From IMG/VR virus record IMGVR_UViG_3300034072_001434, positions 1-25,098 of that record: a stretch of 25,098 nucleotides of DNA, one strand, 5' to 3'. The position numbers were made by a program, and so were the translations under genes. Shown in pieces: positions 10,043-22,901 of the stretch; within the stretch, counting starts at the first letter, position 1; every line of letters begins with the position of its first letter. This DNA comes from a virus. The notes beneath the pieces are model-generated. The model ran no database searches, was not told the origin of the DNA, and was given only the letters and a program-made list of their open reading frames with translations.

Positions 10043-11581
10043 TCACCACGCGCCGCGCGCGGGCATGCGGGTGCCGCGCGCATCGCGCCGGTCATTCTCG
10101 GGGGGTGGCCTGTGGCCTGGACGGTTCTGCGCTTGGCTTGAGCTACCCTGATATTCGTAGAGCGCACCGCCTAGCTGATAGGCACGCCAGGCAAGGGCAT
10201 AAGCCCAGAAGCGGTCGGCGTGGACGTCGCCATCGTTGACGATGCGGACGCTGCCCGATTCCTCGCTGCCCATTTTCTTGAGCGCCATCAGGTCGGCGCG
10301 GGTAATGGCATCGGGTCGGATGCGAACCTTGCGCTCCTCGAACGCCACCTTCAGCCCGATCGCCAGGTCGTACCGTGTCGGCCCGGTCAGCAGCTCGCCA
10401 TAGACCCGGCTTGCGCCGTGCTTGATGATCAGATCCTCGACCACCTTCTCGCCCATGCCGGTCTGGTCAACGCGGGCCTGGACGACGCGGCGGCGCAGAA
10501 AGAGCCCATCGAAGAAGGCATCCTGGTGCGCGAAGGTCTGGCCGGTTTCCTCATAGGTGTCGCGCTGCCACAGCACATCGCCGATCAGCTCCATGCAATA
10601 TTGCACCTGGCCGTCACGGCGGCGCGCGACGTCGCGGCCGACATAGCAAAGCCCGCCAGCGTAGAAATCGGGGAGGCCGCACTCATCGTGCTCGGCAGCA
10701 ATGATGTCTTCCAGCGAGATCAGGCAGCCCGATCCGGTCGCCGGAATACAGTCAAGCTCTTCTGCCGCATCGTCGCCATAGGCTGCGCGGATGTCCGCTT
10801 CCCACTGCTCTTTGGGCGGAAGCTCAGTGCCCTTGGTGCGCGCGACCAGGGCAACGCGATCGTAAAGGCCTGCCTCCATCGCATCGGCGAAGGTGATCTT
10901 CATCGTCGCGCCGGCGCGCTTGCCCGCCCGGATCTCGTCGAGCAGCACATTGAACGGGTTGGAGACGCCATCGTGCGTGGAGATCACGACGACCTGGCCG
11001 CCCCAGATCAGCAGCGCCATTGCCGATTTGATGACCTCGTTCACGTTCTTGTGGAACGCGGCCTCGTCGATGATCACGATGCCCTGTTTACCGCGCAGCG
11101 CACGCGGAACGCTGGGCAGTGCGGTGACGCGGAAGCCGCTGGCAAAGCGGATGCTGAAGGCCTTGACCCCATGCTCGCGGCCGTTCTCGTCGGTGTAGAG
11201 AACCTCTTCCTCGACCAGCTCGCCCGCGACCAGACCAAAGGACCGCGCCCACATGGCGCAGACCTCGATAAATTCGAGGGTCATGTCCTTGTCATAACCC
11301 ATGTACCAGACATTCTGCCCGCCCGCCTCGATGGAGCTGGCAGCCTTCAGCGCGGCGAACGCGGCAACGCCCCAGGTCAGGCCGATACGGCGGCTCTTCT
11401 CGATGACCAGCAGCGATGCACCAGCAAACAGCTTGTCGACCGTCTTCTGCTGATAGCCCAGCAACAGATCGCCCTTGGGCAGGCGCACGATCGCCGCTTC
11501 GGCAGCGGCGCGGTCACCCTGTATTTCGCGGCGGCGGATCTCGTCGTCGCGCGCCTTCTGGTCAGCCGGGGAGAGCTTCAC
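10043..11581 (-). CDS. Large terminase subunit, Mu gp28-like
   Basis: 512 aa. Packaging ATPase/nuclease. A Walker A-like segment EKSRRIGLTWG (residues 61-71) and a Walker B IVIIDEAAF (168-176) preceded by RALRGKQG are the Mu-type terminase pattern; STHDGVSNPF fits the coupling motif. The C-terminal nuclease half has YVGRDVARRRD, VDQTGMGEKVVEDL and HADRFWAYALAWRAY. The GTG at 11581 overlaps the DUF3486 stop (GTGA) and gives a normal N-terminus (KLSPADQKARDDE). The longer upstream extension of this frame is only the shadow of the neighbouring gene. Confidence 0.94.
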   Translation of the reverse strand: MKLSPADQKARDDEIRRREIQGDRAAAEAAIVRLPKGDLLLGYQQKTVDKLFAGASLLVIEKSRRIGLTWGVAAFAALKAASSIEAGGQNVWYMGYDKDMTLEFIEVCAMWARSFGLVAGELVEEEVLYTDENGREHGVKAFSIRFASGFRVTALPSVPRALRGKQGIVIIDEAAFHKNVNEVIKSAMALLIWGGQVVVISTHDGVSNPFNVLLDEIRAGKRAGATMKITFADAMEAGLYDRVALVARTKGTELPPKEQWEADIRAAYGDDAAEELDCIPATGSGCLISLEDIIAAEHDECGLPDFYAGGLCYVGRDVARRRDGQVQYCMELIGDVLWQRDTYEETGQTFAHQDAFFDGLFLRRRVVQARVDQTGMGEKVVEDLIIKHGASRVYGELLTGPTRYDLAIGLKVAFEERKVRIRPDAITRADLMALKKMGSEESGSVRIVNDGDVHADRFWAYALAWRAYQLGGALYEYQGSSSQAQNRPGHRPPPENDRRDARGTRMPARGAW

Positions 11582-12159
11582 GCATCGCTCCCCAGTACGG
11601 CATGGCGGATCGCTTCCACGGTGTCCTTCGACAGCCCCTTGGCACGCGCGGCCGTGGTCGCCTTTTCTGCCGCCTGCTTTGTGGCCTTCTCGGCTGCCCG
11701 GCGCTCGGCCTTTTCGACGACATCGAGGTCGGTCTTGCGGGCCAGCGCGAGGTTGCGCAGCGCCTCGGAAAGCTCCTTGGCCTCTTTCGTATTGAGCTGG
11801 ACGCCTTCGCCATCCTTTTCGGCAAGCATCAGCCGGAACATGTTGGCGTGCAGAAGCTGGCCGTTCAGGTCGAGCAGCTCGGACTGGCTGGAATCGCCGG
11901 CCTGTTTGGCCAGCGCCTCGGCATAGACCTGCGTTTCGCGCATGGTGTTGCTGATGTCGGCGAGCGAGCGGACATGGCGGCCCAGCGCCGATCGGCTGAT
12001 ATGGCCTTGGCCGATCTTCTGCAGCTGCGCCTTGATCTCGTCGATCGTCCAGCCCTTGTCGATCCGCAGCTCGTTGATCAGCGCGCGGATCTCCGGATCC
12101 AGCCGGTCGATCGTCGACGGCGTGTGCTTTAGCGGCTTGGGACGGGCACGGCGGGCCAT
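11578..12159 (-). CDS. DUF3486 protein, Mu gp27-like (candidate small terminase subunit)
   Basis: 193 aa. The N-terminus has basic residues then RLDPEIRALINELRIDKGWT and a helix-turn-helix-like region around KAQLQKIGQGHISRSALGRH (about 43-62), matching DUF3486. This supports a DNA-recognition role with the large subunit encoded next. The C-terminal half is a long Ala/Lys/Glu-rich helix, probably coiled coil. The ATG at 12159 lies just after the stop of the winged-helix gene; the stop overlaps the terminase GTG. Confidence 0.9.
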   Translation of the reverse strand: MARRARPKPLKHTPSTIDRLDPEIRALINELRIDKGWTIDEIKAQLQKIGQGHISRSALGRHVRSLADISNTMRETQVYAEALAKQAGDSSQSELLDLNGQLLHANMFRLMLAEKDGEGVQLNTKEAKELSEALRNLALARKTDLDVVEKAERRAAEKATKQAAEKATTAARAKGLSKDTVEAIRHAVLGSDA

Positions 12160-19217: not shown

Positions 19218-21170
19218 TCATTCGACCACCCGCAACCGGCTGACACCGGCGGCAAAGCGATCCATGAAATCGGGTTCGGGGGCAGCGCGGCGCGCGACCT
19301 TCGCCGCAGCGGCGGTGCCCCGGTGGTTGACGACGCGGATCACCTTCGGCTCGGGCAGCGCCAGCTCGTCCTCGTAATCGGGAATCATCGCGGCGAGCTG
19401 CTCGGCGGTGAGCAAGTCCTCCATATCGCTGGCCGCACGCACCGCCTTGCGCCATTGCGATTCCTGCTTGGCGCGCTTCTTGGCGCTGGCGATATCGAGG
19501 AAGCCTGCATCCTCCAGCAGCTCGGCGCTTGTCAGATATGCCCCAGCCAGGTCGTAAACGTGCAGCGCCTGGTGCAGATTGTCCGGATCGAACCGCACGG
19601 TGACCTTGCGGCCATGCAGGCTCGACATCGAGGGCGACCAGTAGCGGTTGCCCATGAAGCGGATTTCGCCGGTCTTGCGATCGACATTGACCTGCTCGGC
19701 GGCGAGCAGCGCCATGCGCATGACCTCGGGCGAGGCCTTGCCGATCGGCGCGGTCGCATAGCTTTCAGCAAAAGCCTGATCGAAGCTGCGTCCGCGCGCG
19801 GTCTCGGTCCGACGACCTTCGCGGGCATTGTGCATGGCGATTCCGCGCGTGGCGATCCGCACGAAATCGGCAAACGGGACAGCCCTTGAGCCGTAGCTTT
19901 CCGGCTTCGCATCGGGCTTGTTACCGGTATAGGCACCATCGAACGCGGGGTGTTTGGCAATGCTGTCGCAAAGGTCCCTGAAGCCGCGCTCAATGGGCTT
20001 TGACTGGCCCCTGTAAGGGGTCGCCCAGTGTATCTGGATGCCGAGCGAGGTCAGCAGGCCGGTCGGTTCGTCTTCCTTGATCTTGAACCGGAAGCGGGTG
20101 ACAGCGCCACCCGTAATCCACTTCGATGCGAAGGCCCGGCCATTGTCGAGCAGGCAGTGCTTTGGGATGCCGTAATCGCGGAACAGGTCAGCAAAGGCGA
20201 GCCGGGTCTGCACCGCGCTCTCGGTTTCGCCAATACGCCACGCCAGTATCTTGCGGCTGTACACGTCCTGGATCGCGACAATGATCGGGCGGATGATGCG
20301 GCCATCGTCGAGCGCCACGAACACGTCGAACTTGTGGCCGTCGATATTGACGATCTCCATCGCGTGCAGCCCAGCGACGCTGCGCTTCTGCGCGGGCATC
20401 GAGCGGCGAAGCGCCTCTGCGCCTTCGCGCCGGGCGATGATGACACGCGGGTCGATCTCGCGCTCCAGTCGGCGACTGAGCGCCTTTTCGTGAGGCAGCG
20501 GCAGGCCTGCTTTCTTGGCAAAAGCCTTAGTCTGGCGATACGATTCCGCGAGCGTGACCTTGCTGTCGCGCAGATAGAAACTCTTGTAGAACTGCCATAC
20601 CGCAGGATCGATCGGCGCGGCGCAGCCACCGCCACGGCGGCGCGGAGCCAGGCACGGCAGGCGATCATGCGCGGCGATGCCCTCGACCAGCTTGAGCCAG
20701 GCCCAGAGCGTCGACTGGCCTGCAATGCCTTCCTTTGCCACGGCGCTGACCGCCATCGATCGGGTCAGGCCTGCCGCCTCATAGCGCTCGATCCGCTGCA
20801 CCGCGTCCAGGCGGCGCTCGGCCTCGGCCCTGGTCTTGGCATTCTGCGCCTCGTACCAGCTCCACAGTTGCGAGGCGGCGAGCGCCGATGCGTCATCGGG
20901 CGAGGCGTGAACCTGGCCGTCGATCGAGATACCGCGCCGCACCAGCTCGGCCCGCGCGATCGCGGGCAGCACCCGGATGGAATATTCCAGGCCGCCGCCT
21001 CGGCCAGCACGCGGGCGGGCCAGTGGCGCGCCCCGGCTGTCCACCGCCAGCGCCCAGCGCTCTTCGGCTGCGCGCTCGTTCACCTTGCGCTTGATGCGCG
21101 GCAGACCGGGCAGGGCCAGATCGGCCAGCTCGGCTGCGGTGAACCACGTCTTTGTGCCTGACTGGATCAA
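19218..21170 (-). CDS. MuA-type DDE transposase
   Basis: 650 aa. Cuts and joins phage ends during integration and replicative transposition. The N-terminal ~60 residues (WFTAAELADLALPGLPRIKR and on) form the MuA winged-helix end/enhancer-binding domain; a second HTH region lies at about 130-165. The catalytic core has Asp277 in NIDGHKFD, Asp342 in LLDNGRAF and Glu394 in SKPIERGFRDL. The core is followed by the Mu C-terminal beta-barrel region (RYWSPSMSSLHGRKVTVRFD) and a basic helical tail for MuB/ClpX contact. The start is a TTG at 21170, overlapping the previous stop (TTGA); no ATG follows for over 130 codons. Confidence 0.95.
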   Translation of the reverse strand: MIQSGTKTWFTAAELADLALPGLPRIKRKVNERAAEERWALAVDSRGAPLARPRAGRGGGLEYSIRVLPAIARAELVRRGISIDGQVHASPDDASALAASQLWSWYEAQNAKTRAEAERRLDAVQRIERYEAAGLTRSMAVSAVAKEGIAGQSTLWAWLKLVEGIAAHDRLPCLAPRRRGGGCAAPIDPAVWQFYKSFYLRDSKVTLAESYRQTKAFAKKAGLPLPHEKALSRRLEREIDPRVIIARREGAEALRRSMPAQKRSVAGLHAMEIVNIDGHKFDVFVALDDGRIIRPIIVAIQDVYSRKILAWRIGETESAVQTRLAFADLFRDYGIPKHCLLDNGRAFASKWITGGAVTRFRFKIKEDEPTGLLTSLGIQIHWATPYRGQSKPIERGFRDLCDSIAKHPAFDGAYTGNKPDAKPESYGSRAVPFADFVRIATRGIAMHNAREGRRTETARGRSFDQAFAESYATAPIGKASPEVMRMALLAAEQVNVDRKTGEIRFMGNRYWSPSMSSLHGRKVTVRFDPDNLHQALHVYDLAGAYLTSAELLEDAGFLDIASAKKRAKQESQWRKAVRAASDMEDLLTAEQLAAMIPDYEDELALPEPKVIRVVNHRGTAAAAKVARRAAPEPDFMDRFAAGVSRLRVVE

Positions 21171-21631: not shown

Positions 21632-21927
21632 CTTGCAGCGCTCTCCTGCGGTGCCCAGCGCGAGCAGGCAGGCGAACCCACCTTGATGTCAGTGCCCGGC
21701 CCCTTGGTCCATCGGATCAGAGCGCATTTCGGGAAGGTTTTCGCACCGCCCTGGATGCGGCGGATATGGCGGCACGTCTTGCACGTCTCGCCTTGCGGCC
21801 CGGTGCCAGGCTGCGCGGCATAGCCCGCCTTGCGCTTGCGCTTGCGCTTGCCGCTAACCATGCGGATGCTCGGTTTGTCCTTCAGGGGCAGGTCGAGGGC
21901 CATCTGCAGCTTGGGGTCGATCGGCAT
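21628..21927 (-). CDS. Cys-rich small early protein with a Lys/Arg repeat
   Basis: 99 aa. A basic patch KRKRKRK (about residues 27-33) is encoded by a tandem hexamer (21829-21852). A four-Cys set follows, CKTC at about 49-52, then PKCALI and SPACSRW, consistent with one zinc-binding site. DNA or RNA binding is plausible, but I recognise no family. The ATG at 21927 shares one base with the previous stop (TGATG). Confidence 0.7.
   Translation of the reverse strand: MPIDPKLQMALDLPLKDKPSIRMVSGKRKRKRKAGYAAQPGTGPQGETCKTCRHIRRIQGGAKTFPKCALIRWTKGPGTDIKVGSPACSRWAPQESAAR
21829..21852. repeat. Tandem hexamer repeat (CTTGCG x3 plus a near copy)
   Basis: Three perfect CTTGCG units followed by CTTGCC, inside the Cys-rich small protein gene, where they encode the Lys-Arg run. 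Unit number could vary by slippage in steps of two residues without a frameshift. Confidence 0.7.
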
Positions 21928-22241
21928 CAGCCCTGCTCCTCCATGCCAAGCGCGATCGCGTGTTCGATCACCTGCTCGGCCAGCATCGGCTCGCGCTTGC
22001 CACTGACGCGGTAGCGGCGGACCAGCGCGCTGCGATCGGTGCAGTCGACCAGGATCGCTTTGCTCTTGAGAAACCGGATCGCCCGCTCGATCGCCTCGCG
22101 GCGCTGGGCGATCGGGTCGGTCTTAGAAAGCGGCAATGGCTTGCGCGGGTTGCGCGGCGCGACGATCCGGCGCGGGGCTGGGGTCACGCTGGCCGCGCTT
22201 GCCGGGCGCAGGTCGAGCTGACCCGCAATCTTGCGGATCAT
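21927..22241 (-). CDS. Small early protein of unknown function
   Basis: 104 aa if started at the ATG at 22241. It begins IRKIAGQLDLRPASAASVTP; a basic middle (APRNPRKPLPLSKTDPIAQR) is followed by two helices and a possible wing (AILVDCTDRSALVRRYRVSG). The last 30 residues look like a helical DNA-binding or dimer region. I recognise no family. The same frame is open far upstream to a GTG at 22901, so it might also be the C-terminal part of the chimeric product. Confidence 0.62.
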   Translation of the reverse strand: MIRKIAGQLDLRPASAASVTPAPRRIVAPRNPRKPLPLSKTDPIAQRREAIERAIRFLKSKAILVDCTDRSALVRRYRVSGKREPMLAEQVIEHAIALGMEEQG

Positions 22242-22901
22242 CGCCAGCCGGTCTTGCTTCAGCTCGGCCTTTGCGGTGTCTCGCTTTGCAGCTTGGCGAG
22301 CAGGTCGGGCGGTAGCTCCGCGTCCATCCGGTCGAGGAACTCGGCGAGCCTCGACGTCTGCACCCGCAGCATGTCCAGATCGTCCGCCCTGATCGGGCCC
22401 GGCTGCGACAGCCCCGTCATGCGGGCGGCAAGCGCTAGGTTCTTTTCCGATAACGGCACGAAACGTCCTTTCTGCACCACCGGTGATCAACTTGCTGGCG
22501 AACGATCGGCCATTGTCGGTTTCAACTGGTTGCGCGGTCGGCTCCGGAACGGAAGGAGCCGACCGCGCCTCGTCGTCACAGTCACGAGGGGGTTCAGACT
22601 GTGCGACGGGTTCGAAAGAGGTGGCTTCGTCGATTACGACAAAACCGCGCTTGCCGCGCAGCGAGCGAGCGATCGACGTTTCCGGATAGGAATCGCAATC
22701 GGCCCGCATGCAGGCGGGCACGTCTGCCGGATCGATGCACGGCGGAGGCACGCTGCCCTTGACCTGGTCGGAGAGCCGCACACGCTCCAGCGGCAGATAG
22801 GCCACGTCCGTGCCCGCATGGCGCAGGCCCAGCAGGGCGCGCACGGTGTCGGGCGTGATGCCCTTAGCGCGGCGGATGTTCGGGCGCTGCGGGCTGCTCA
22901 C
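21927..22901 (-). CDS. Chimeric early ORF with terminase-like and transposase-like segments
   Basis: A GTG at 22901 overlaps the previous stop (GTGA), and the frame stays open for 324 codons. Residues 1-~78 look like a normal small protein with three or four Cys (PPPCIDPADVPACMRADCDS). Residues 79-93 (RSLRGKRGFVVIDEA) resemble the Walker-B region of this phage's terminase (11 of 15 identical). Residues 129-143 (DNGRSFASKLITGGA) resemble the MuA catalytic Asp region (13 of 15). Residues ~158-220 run in the shadow frame of the 73-aa gene, and the last 104 equal the downstream gene. It may be a degraded, fused or genuinely chimeric gene; no function assigned. Confidence 0.45.
   Translation of the reverse strand: MSSPQRPNIRRAKGITPDTVRALLGLRHAGTDVAYLPLERVRLSDQVKGSVPPPCIDPADVPACMRADCDSYPETSIARSLRGKRGFVVIDEATSFEPVAQSEPPRDCDDEARSAPSVPEPTAQPVETDNGRSFASKLITGGAERTFRAVIGKEPSACRPHDGAVAAGPDQGGRSGHAAGADVEARRVPRPDGRGATARPARQAAKRDTAKAELKQDRLAMIRKIAGQLDLRPASAASVTPAPRRIVAPRNPRKPLPLSKTDPIAQRREAIERAIRFLKSKAILVDCTDRSALVRRYRVSGKREPMLAEQVIEHAIALGMEEQG
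22259..22480 (-). CDS. Small helical early protein, nested in another frame of the chimeric ORF
   Basis: 73 aa from a GTG at 22480. An internal GTG at 22459 is preceded by AGAAAGGA with 6 bases of spacing and may be the true start (66 aa). The protein is helical and acidic (PIRADDLDMLRVQTSRLAEF, then LDRMDAELPPDLLAKL). Third codon positions are strongly G/C in this frame and much less so in the overlapping chimeric frame, so I believe this is the older coding frame here. Function unknown. Confidence 0.6.
   Translation of the reverse strand: MVQKGRFVPLSEKNLALAARMTGLSQPGPIRADDLDMLRVQTSRLAEFLDRMDAELPPDLLAKLQSETPQRPS
22532..22568. repeat. Perfect 14-bp inverted repeat inside the chimeric ORF
   Basis: GCGCGGTCGGCTCC at 22532-22545 and GGAGCCGACCGCGC at 22555-22568 pair perfectly, with a 9-base loop. 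It is the longest perfect hairpin I found in the window. It lies between the transposase-like segment (22473-22517) and the terminase-like segment (22623-22667). No U-run follows on either strand. Confidence 0.85.

Follow-up and report, generated by a model that had tools for sequence, protein, structure and literature searches.

In-frame pieces of transposase and terminase active-site regions in small early genes of Mu-like phages: a possible footprint of recombination between phages

Introduction

Mosaic genes that arise by illegitimate recombination are well known in tailed phages. The locus described here resembles them in having short foreign segments with abrupt borders, lying between or inside genes, and in the existence of orthologues free of the pieces. 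It differs in the independent recurrence of one pair of active-site segments in different genes, always in their original frame and sense. One segment corresponds to the MuA transposase (PF02914, phrog_310): 15–25 residues at the second catalytic Asp are shared, with up to 91% nucleotide identity, but the early ORF has no other MuA parts and no catalytic triad. The other corresponds to about 15 residues of the Walker-B strand of the terminase large subunit (phrog_2, PF03237/PF17289), whereas the ORF in our window has neither a Walker A motif nor a nuclease domain. Phage mini-CRISPR arrays and short self-immunity DNA elements of the BstA/aba type (BstA: PMC8585504) are likewise phage-borne short sequences that match other phages. 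Here, in contrast, there are no repeats and no associated effector, and all copies are sense, in frame and within protein genes. A limited search of open-licence papers returned no description of such repeated, independent in-frame captures of one pair of active-site segments by different tiny genes.

Results

An early ORF carries pieces of two core genes

The window, that is, the whole stretch of DNA analyzed, is a 25,098-base virus record from a Mu-like phage whose genes are encoded on the minus strand (Table 1). In the early region, upstream of MuA, an ORF starting at GTG 22901 contains both pieces; it had no family match in Pfam or PHROGs. The MuA part comprises residues ~343–357 alone rather than a DDE catalytic domain, and the terminase part comprises about 15 residues of the Walker-B strand rather than an ATPase and a nuclease. 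The frame stays open from 22901 to 21927 in the window, and correspondingly in relatives. Genes A and C share this single open frame in the window and in loci L002, L003 and L010, with gene B overlapping in another frame; a single A–C protein may be translated from it (22901–21927). By inspection, a Shine-Dalgarno-like AAAGGAC of gene B follows directly after the MuA piece. AlphaFold predicted no structure for the early ORF (pLDDT 55, pTM 0.16; the model was too poor for a fold search), and both pieces sit in a variable, predicted-disordered stretch of it.

Table 1. Features of the window that bear on the captured pieces
Feature	Coordinates	Strand	Basis or remark
MuA gene	21170-19218	-	PF02914, E=4.6e-54
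MuB gene	19127-18171	-	
Terminase gene	about 11593-10043	-	phrog_2, E=4e-29
Gene A, conserved N-terminal part	22695-22901	-	GTG overlaps preceding stop; ends in linker motif DPADVPACMRADC (22695-22733)
Terminase Walker-B coding piece, probably captured (RSLRGKRGFVVIDEA)	22619-22667	-	Matches to own and L124 terminase, DNA profile, positional equivalents in L006, L002, L010
Hairpin 1 (CGTCGCACAGTC...GACTGTGACGACG)	22571-22608	-	11 pairs; in all four relatives
Hairpin 2	22531-22569	-	14-bp perfect stem in the window; conserved
MuA coding piece around second catalytic Asp, very probably captured (DNGRSFASKLITGGA)	22473-22518	-	Matches to own and L069 MuA, DNA profile
Gene B (GTGCCGTTATCG...), next early gene, different frame	22259-22459	-	66-70% aa identity in all four relatives
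Gene C / C-terminal domain, frame of gene A	21927-22262	-	
Own MuA counterpart of the MuA piece	20103-20147	-	Within MuA 19218-21170
Own terminase counterpart of the Walker-B piece	11060-11104	-	Within terminase 10043-11593

Both pieces are closer to genes of other Mu-like phages

At 22473–22517, the MuA piece agrees with the phage's own MuA at 33 of 45 nt and 13 of 15 residues; the similarity is confined to 46 nt and ends abruptly, and the second-best 45-nt match within the window reached 26. A DNA profile HMM built from 95 MuA genes scored the piece at 36.9 bits (E=3e-9), against an E value of at least 2.6 for the best reversed-sequence control. The phage's own MuA ranked only 40th of 94 in similarity to the piece. 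The closest was the MuA of L069 (42/46 by blastn, 91%; 41/45 in codon register), and that of the sphingomonad prophage L029 was about 90% identical over 42 nt. Since the L069 match lies far above that to the phage's own MuA, the donor appears to be foreign, and we conclude that the piece was very probably captured from another Mu-like phage. When the 45-nt piece was searched by blastn against 2.3 Gb of phage records, the single significant match was to the same MuA position in the transposase of Microcystis phage Mwe-Yong1 (41 nt, 87.8%, E=1e-5).

The Walker-B piece (22623–22667) agrees with the phage's own terminase at 32 of 45 nt and 11 of 15 residues. Again the similarity stops sharply, being confined to 49 nt. 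The second-best 45-nt matches in the window, the MuB Walker B among them, reached 27, and MuB was rejected as the source on this count (27 versus 32). The terminase DNA profile (70 genes) gave 25.7 bits (E=1.3e-5; reversed control 0.13), and the terminase of L124 was 81.6% identical over 49 nt. Searched alone against the same 2.3 Gb of phage records, the piece gave nothing significant; among named phages, Rhodovulum phage RS1 and Rhodobacter phage RC1 provided the best Mu-like matches (E=0.9), in both cases at the Walker B of the terminase. Taken together, capture from a foreign Mu-like phage is likely for this piece as well.

We also considered that the Walker-B-like piece might be the native last strand of a gene A module (GFDxA...D...RGRxGxVIxDEA) that is terminase-like by convergence, with the MuA piece alone being captured. 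The equivalent stretch in L010 and L006 follows a GFDxA motif and reads as a single module, the L010 version (RGRNGQVIISEAGQF) is hardly Walker-B-like, and protein matches this short carry little weight by themselves (19.0 bits in the window, control maximum 15.3). However, the terminase matches in the window and in L006 are found at the DNA level (E about 1e-5, far from the reversed control), and the segment occurs apart from any GFDxA in three other small genes described below (gene Z of L109 and L124, and an ORF of L121). We therefore regard a native module as unlikely.

These results reproduce the coordinates, strand, frame and identity counts of the original prediction. Both pieces exceed chance, with MuA and terminase as their best matches, and the results bear out the prediction's view that the pieces originated in protein-coding genes of other Mu-like phages. 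Its suggestion of a BLAST search with each 45-nt segment succeeded for the MuA piece but not for the Walker-B piece. Its remark that most differences fall at third codon positions holds only against the phage's own genes: the four mismatches to the L069 MuA within 45 nt all fall at first or second positions.

Relatives of gene A share an N-terminal part and differ in the pieces

The first ~70 residues of gene A are 70–80% identical to their counterparts in L002, in L006/L003 (a prophage of Blastomonas natatoria DSM 3183) and in L010 (grouped with L049). In the window and these three relatives, the proteins diverge after a linker motif, DPADVPACMRxDC. Fragments were found at corresponding places: the Walker-B-like piece is present in all four phages, only weakly so in L010; a terminase-nuclease-like GxDxA piece is present in L006, L010 and L002; and the MuA piece is present in the window and L010 only, with none at the corresponding place in L006 and L002. 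Between the window and L010/L049, the MuA piece is 88% identical over 84 nt. No gene A relative lacking the Walker-B piece was found among the relatives examined. The original prediction had named as its counter-case a full-length protein conserved across phages whose segments matched terminase or transposase genes no better; instead, the N-terminal ~70 residues are conserved in the four phages and the fragment region is variable, with both pieces matching MuA and terminase best. An assembly artefact of the contig was rejected, the pieces being common to independent contigs and an isolate genome (L006). In L006, the MuA match is limited to about 140 N-terminal residues, so that this prophage appears to be transposition-deficient.

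The same two segments recur in other small genes

Ectopic copies were sought with strand-unbiased DNA profiles over 96 Mu-like loci; relatives were drawn from one public viral collection and a sample of prokaryote genomes, and named phage records were searched by BLAST only. Different small genes in other phages carry the same two segments. Outside MuA itself, the MuA segment was found in six loci (L084, L104, L121, L072, the window and L010; E from 9e-11 to 3e-6), with a weaker match in L031/L095 (0.007). Besides gene A, the recipients are gene Z (ending WMMRD) in L084 and L104, the start of a DnaA-like gene in L121, and the start of a zinc-ribbon gene in L072. When events are told apart by the recipient gene and the position in it rather than with a tree, these six loci amount to about four independent ones. 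All ectopic copies are on the sense strand, and the best antisense match had an E value of 0.83.

The terminase Walker-B segment was found in small genes of about seven loci, which by the same reckoning represent three to four independent events. Recipients include gene Z in L109 and L124 and a 69-aa ORF in L121 (L121:10350-10521), about 300 nt before the terminase match of that locus; L060 probably also belongs here, by a 43-nt blastn match alone (E=3e-3). L121 thus carries both segments in two different small genes.

For several recipients, orthologues without the piece exist, indicating that the piece was added. Those of the L121 DnaA-like gene start at residue 33, past the piece; in the L072 zinc-ribbon gene, the piece lies between MNAP and PAPLCYHEGE, and orthologues do without it; and gene Z has no piece in L085, L138 and L133.

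The choice of segment is narrow. In sliding-window profiles, the catalytic-Asp segment is one of four equally conserved MuA windows, yet it is the source of all catalytic-domain matches, and the other equally conserved MuA windows gave no ectopic matches. Within terminase, ectopic matches came from the Walker-B window alone, and for MuB or portal fragments nothing convincing was found beyond their own loci. Thirteen further prophages had no ectopic copies, which puts such pieces in roughly one-tenth of the Mu-like loci examined. The 36 named Mu-like phage records showed no second copies at BLAST sensitivity, a class-wide genome search for the pieces yielded weak leads only, and a broad blastp of early ORFs against core genes returned mostly out-of-frame overlaps.

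Several other observations were made in these loci. The Trp of the MuA SKW motif is replaced (L, S, Q, Y or V) in the ectopic copies of the window, L049, L084, L121 and L072; it also varies in some genuine MuA proteins. In gene Z of L087, which ends about 2.57 kb upstream of MuA, the slot that holds MuA or terminase pieces elsewhere is occupied by a segment resembling Walker A (CGRGQGKSVATEAAL), with a weak match in Pfam to YuA_Gp49 (E=0.014). A tRNA-like sequence of about 120 nt (Rfam RF00005, 40–48 bits), enlarged in the region of the anticodon arm, lies on the plus strand at L084:1773-1892, L104:5180-5299 and L133:5044-5163, and a similar one at about 5320-5470 in L087. It falls within an early-region ORF, between the DPADVPACMRPDC motif and the gene C domain, and ARAGORN did not call it in L084, L087 and L104. 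In L084, L104 and L133 it occupies the corresponding linker, which suggests that other DNA was captured there too. Longer early-region fragments of the MuA DNA-binding domain (I-beta/I-gamma), up to 55% identical to MuA, occur in small ORFs (L087:3940-4092, L064:2497-2670, L086:2839-3000 and L057:5840-5960), and a 63-residue early-region piece at L070:2386-2574 resembles a Mu F-like head protein. Small genes resembling the C-terminal beta-barrel of MuA lie about 4.4–5.5 kb upstream of MuA in L076, L102, L100, L032, L038, L036, L113 and L127; they are probably a real gene family and not captured pieces.

The captured pieces do not evolve as proteins

Compared with their nearest genuine genes, the captured pieces have mismatches spread 26:22:23 over the three codon positions; 11 changes are synonymous and 42 non-synonymous. 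Some of the codon alignments are short (L072 and the Walker-B piece of L121), but the pattern is the same in the longer ones. For genuine MuA and terminase segments, compared with their nearest relatives, the spread was 78:43:526, with 504 synonymous and 83 non-synonymous changes. The even spread and the 11:42 ratio indicate that protein-level constraint on the pieces has been lost, and the codon data are most simply read as neutral decay following capture.

A different view is that the pieces are, or were, selected as peptides, be it as putative dominant-negative or decoy peptides against rival phages or as decoys for host sensors that recognize conserved phage enzymes, with an arms race turning them over so quickly that they never look conserved. 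Every copy is sense and in the original frame, the segments are active sites of the enzymes that move phage DNA, and the sequence is foreign and not the phage's own. Also in its favor are the number of independent sites, roughly four for MuA and three to four for terminase, the presence of both segments in two small genes of L121, and the early-gene location in the window. On the other hand, the codon data show no purifying selection on the peptide, and motif residues are gone in some copies: L010 has DTG for DNG and SEA for DEA, and the Asp is absent in L084 and L072. In addition, AlphaFold predicts no structure, and peptides of 15–25 residues have no established mechanism of this kind. We consider selection as peptides rather unlikely. 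Of the explanations offered by the original prediction, the maintained decoy peptide is accordingly disfavored, antisense seeds find no antisense copy in the profile scan, and recombination debris fits the absent codon-level constraint.

The pieces of the window flank two hairpins, raising the alternative of a guide, sponge or decoy transcript whose sequence matches rival MuA or terminase. The hairpins are kept in all four phages while their surroundings vary, the local RNA fold is strong (z = -5.5), codon periodicity is absent, and the third-position identity of the MuA piece between the window and L010 is 0.84, versus 0.56–0.66 in neighboring genes. Nevertheless, a sense copy cannot pair with its target mRNA, the original frame would be needless for an RNA, and no such hairpins are known for the copies in gene Z, L121 and L072. 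None of the 25 hairpin pairs scored (0/11 in hairpin 1) had a double compensatory change, and no Rfam family was matched at the window hairpins. An RNA function is thus very unlikely overall, and a guide or sponge RNA is possible for hairpin-flanked copies only. Two related candidates were rejected: an antisense RNA against MuA or terminase, as every ectopic copy is on the coding strand, and a CRISPR-like array, as the repeats in the window are short, imperfect, probably due to chance, and not CRISPR-like direct repeats.

Discussion

The reading that we prefer, and to which we give about an even chance, is that the pieces are a footprint of short-patch recombination between phages in small early genes, followed by neutral decay, and not a working part. 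Capture is argued for by the foreign origin, the sharp borders at ~45–50 nt, the recurrence, the piece-free orthologues, the lack of codon periodicity and a host region for which no structure is predicted. In the proposed course of events, two Mu-like phages would meet in one cell by co-infection, and microhomology or strand-annealing short-patch recombination would carry 40–80 nt of a conserved core gene into a small early gene, landing in a tolerant, disordered linker or at a terminus of the recipient. Out-of-frame products would be lost because the recipient gene is broken, while an in-frame insert might be tolerated and then decay neutrally.

By itself, neutral capture accounts neither for why the same two segments recur nor for all copies being sense and in the original frame. 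Retention in frame is expected if the recipient gene matters, and about four of the six frames would be open for the MuA piece of the window. If orientation were random, an all-sense outcome in about seven to eight independent events would have a probability of about 0.01, a figure limited, as are the frame statistics, by the few copies. The recurrence of active-site segments in sense and original frame leaves room for a selected, fast-turning-over peptide role. A bolder form of this idea is that small early genes serve as a sampling board, on which active-site segments of rival transposases and terminases are repeatedly acquired in frame and used, through putative short, fast-turning-over peptides or their transcripts, to hinder competing phages or deceive the host's sensors of those enzymes; we think this unlikely.

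If the captures are neutral, the pieces record sensitively which phages encounter one another and recombine, and they caution annotators that an active-site motif in a small phage ORF may be a scrap. If they are selected, they would indicate an unrecognized form of competition between phages, testable by simple laboratory assays.
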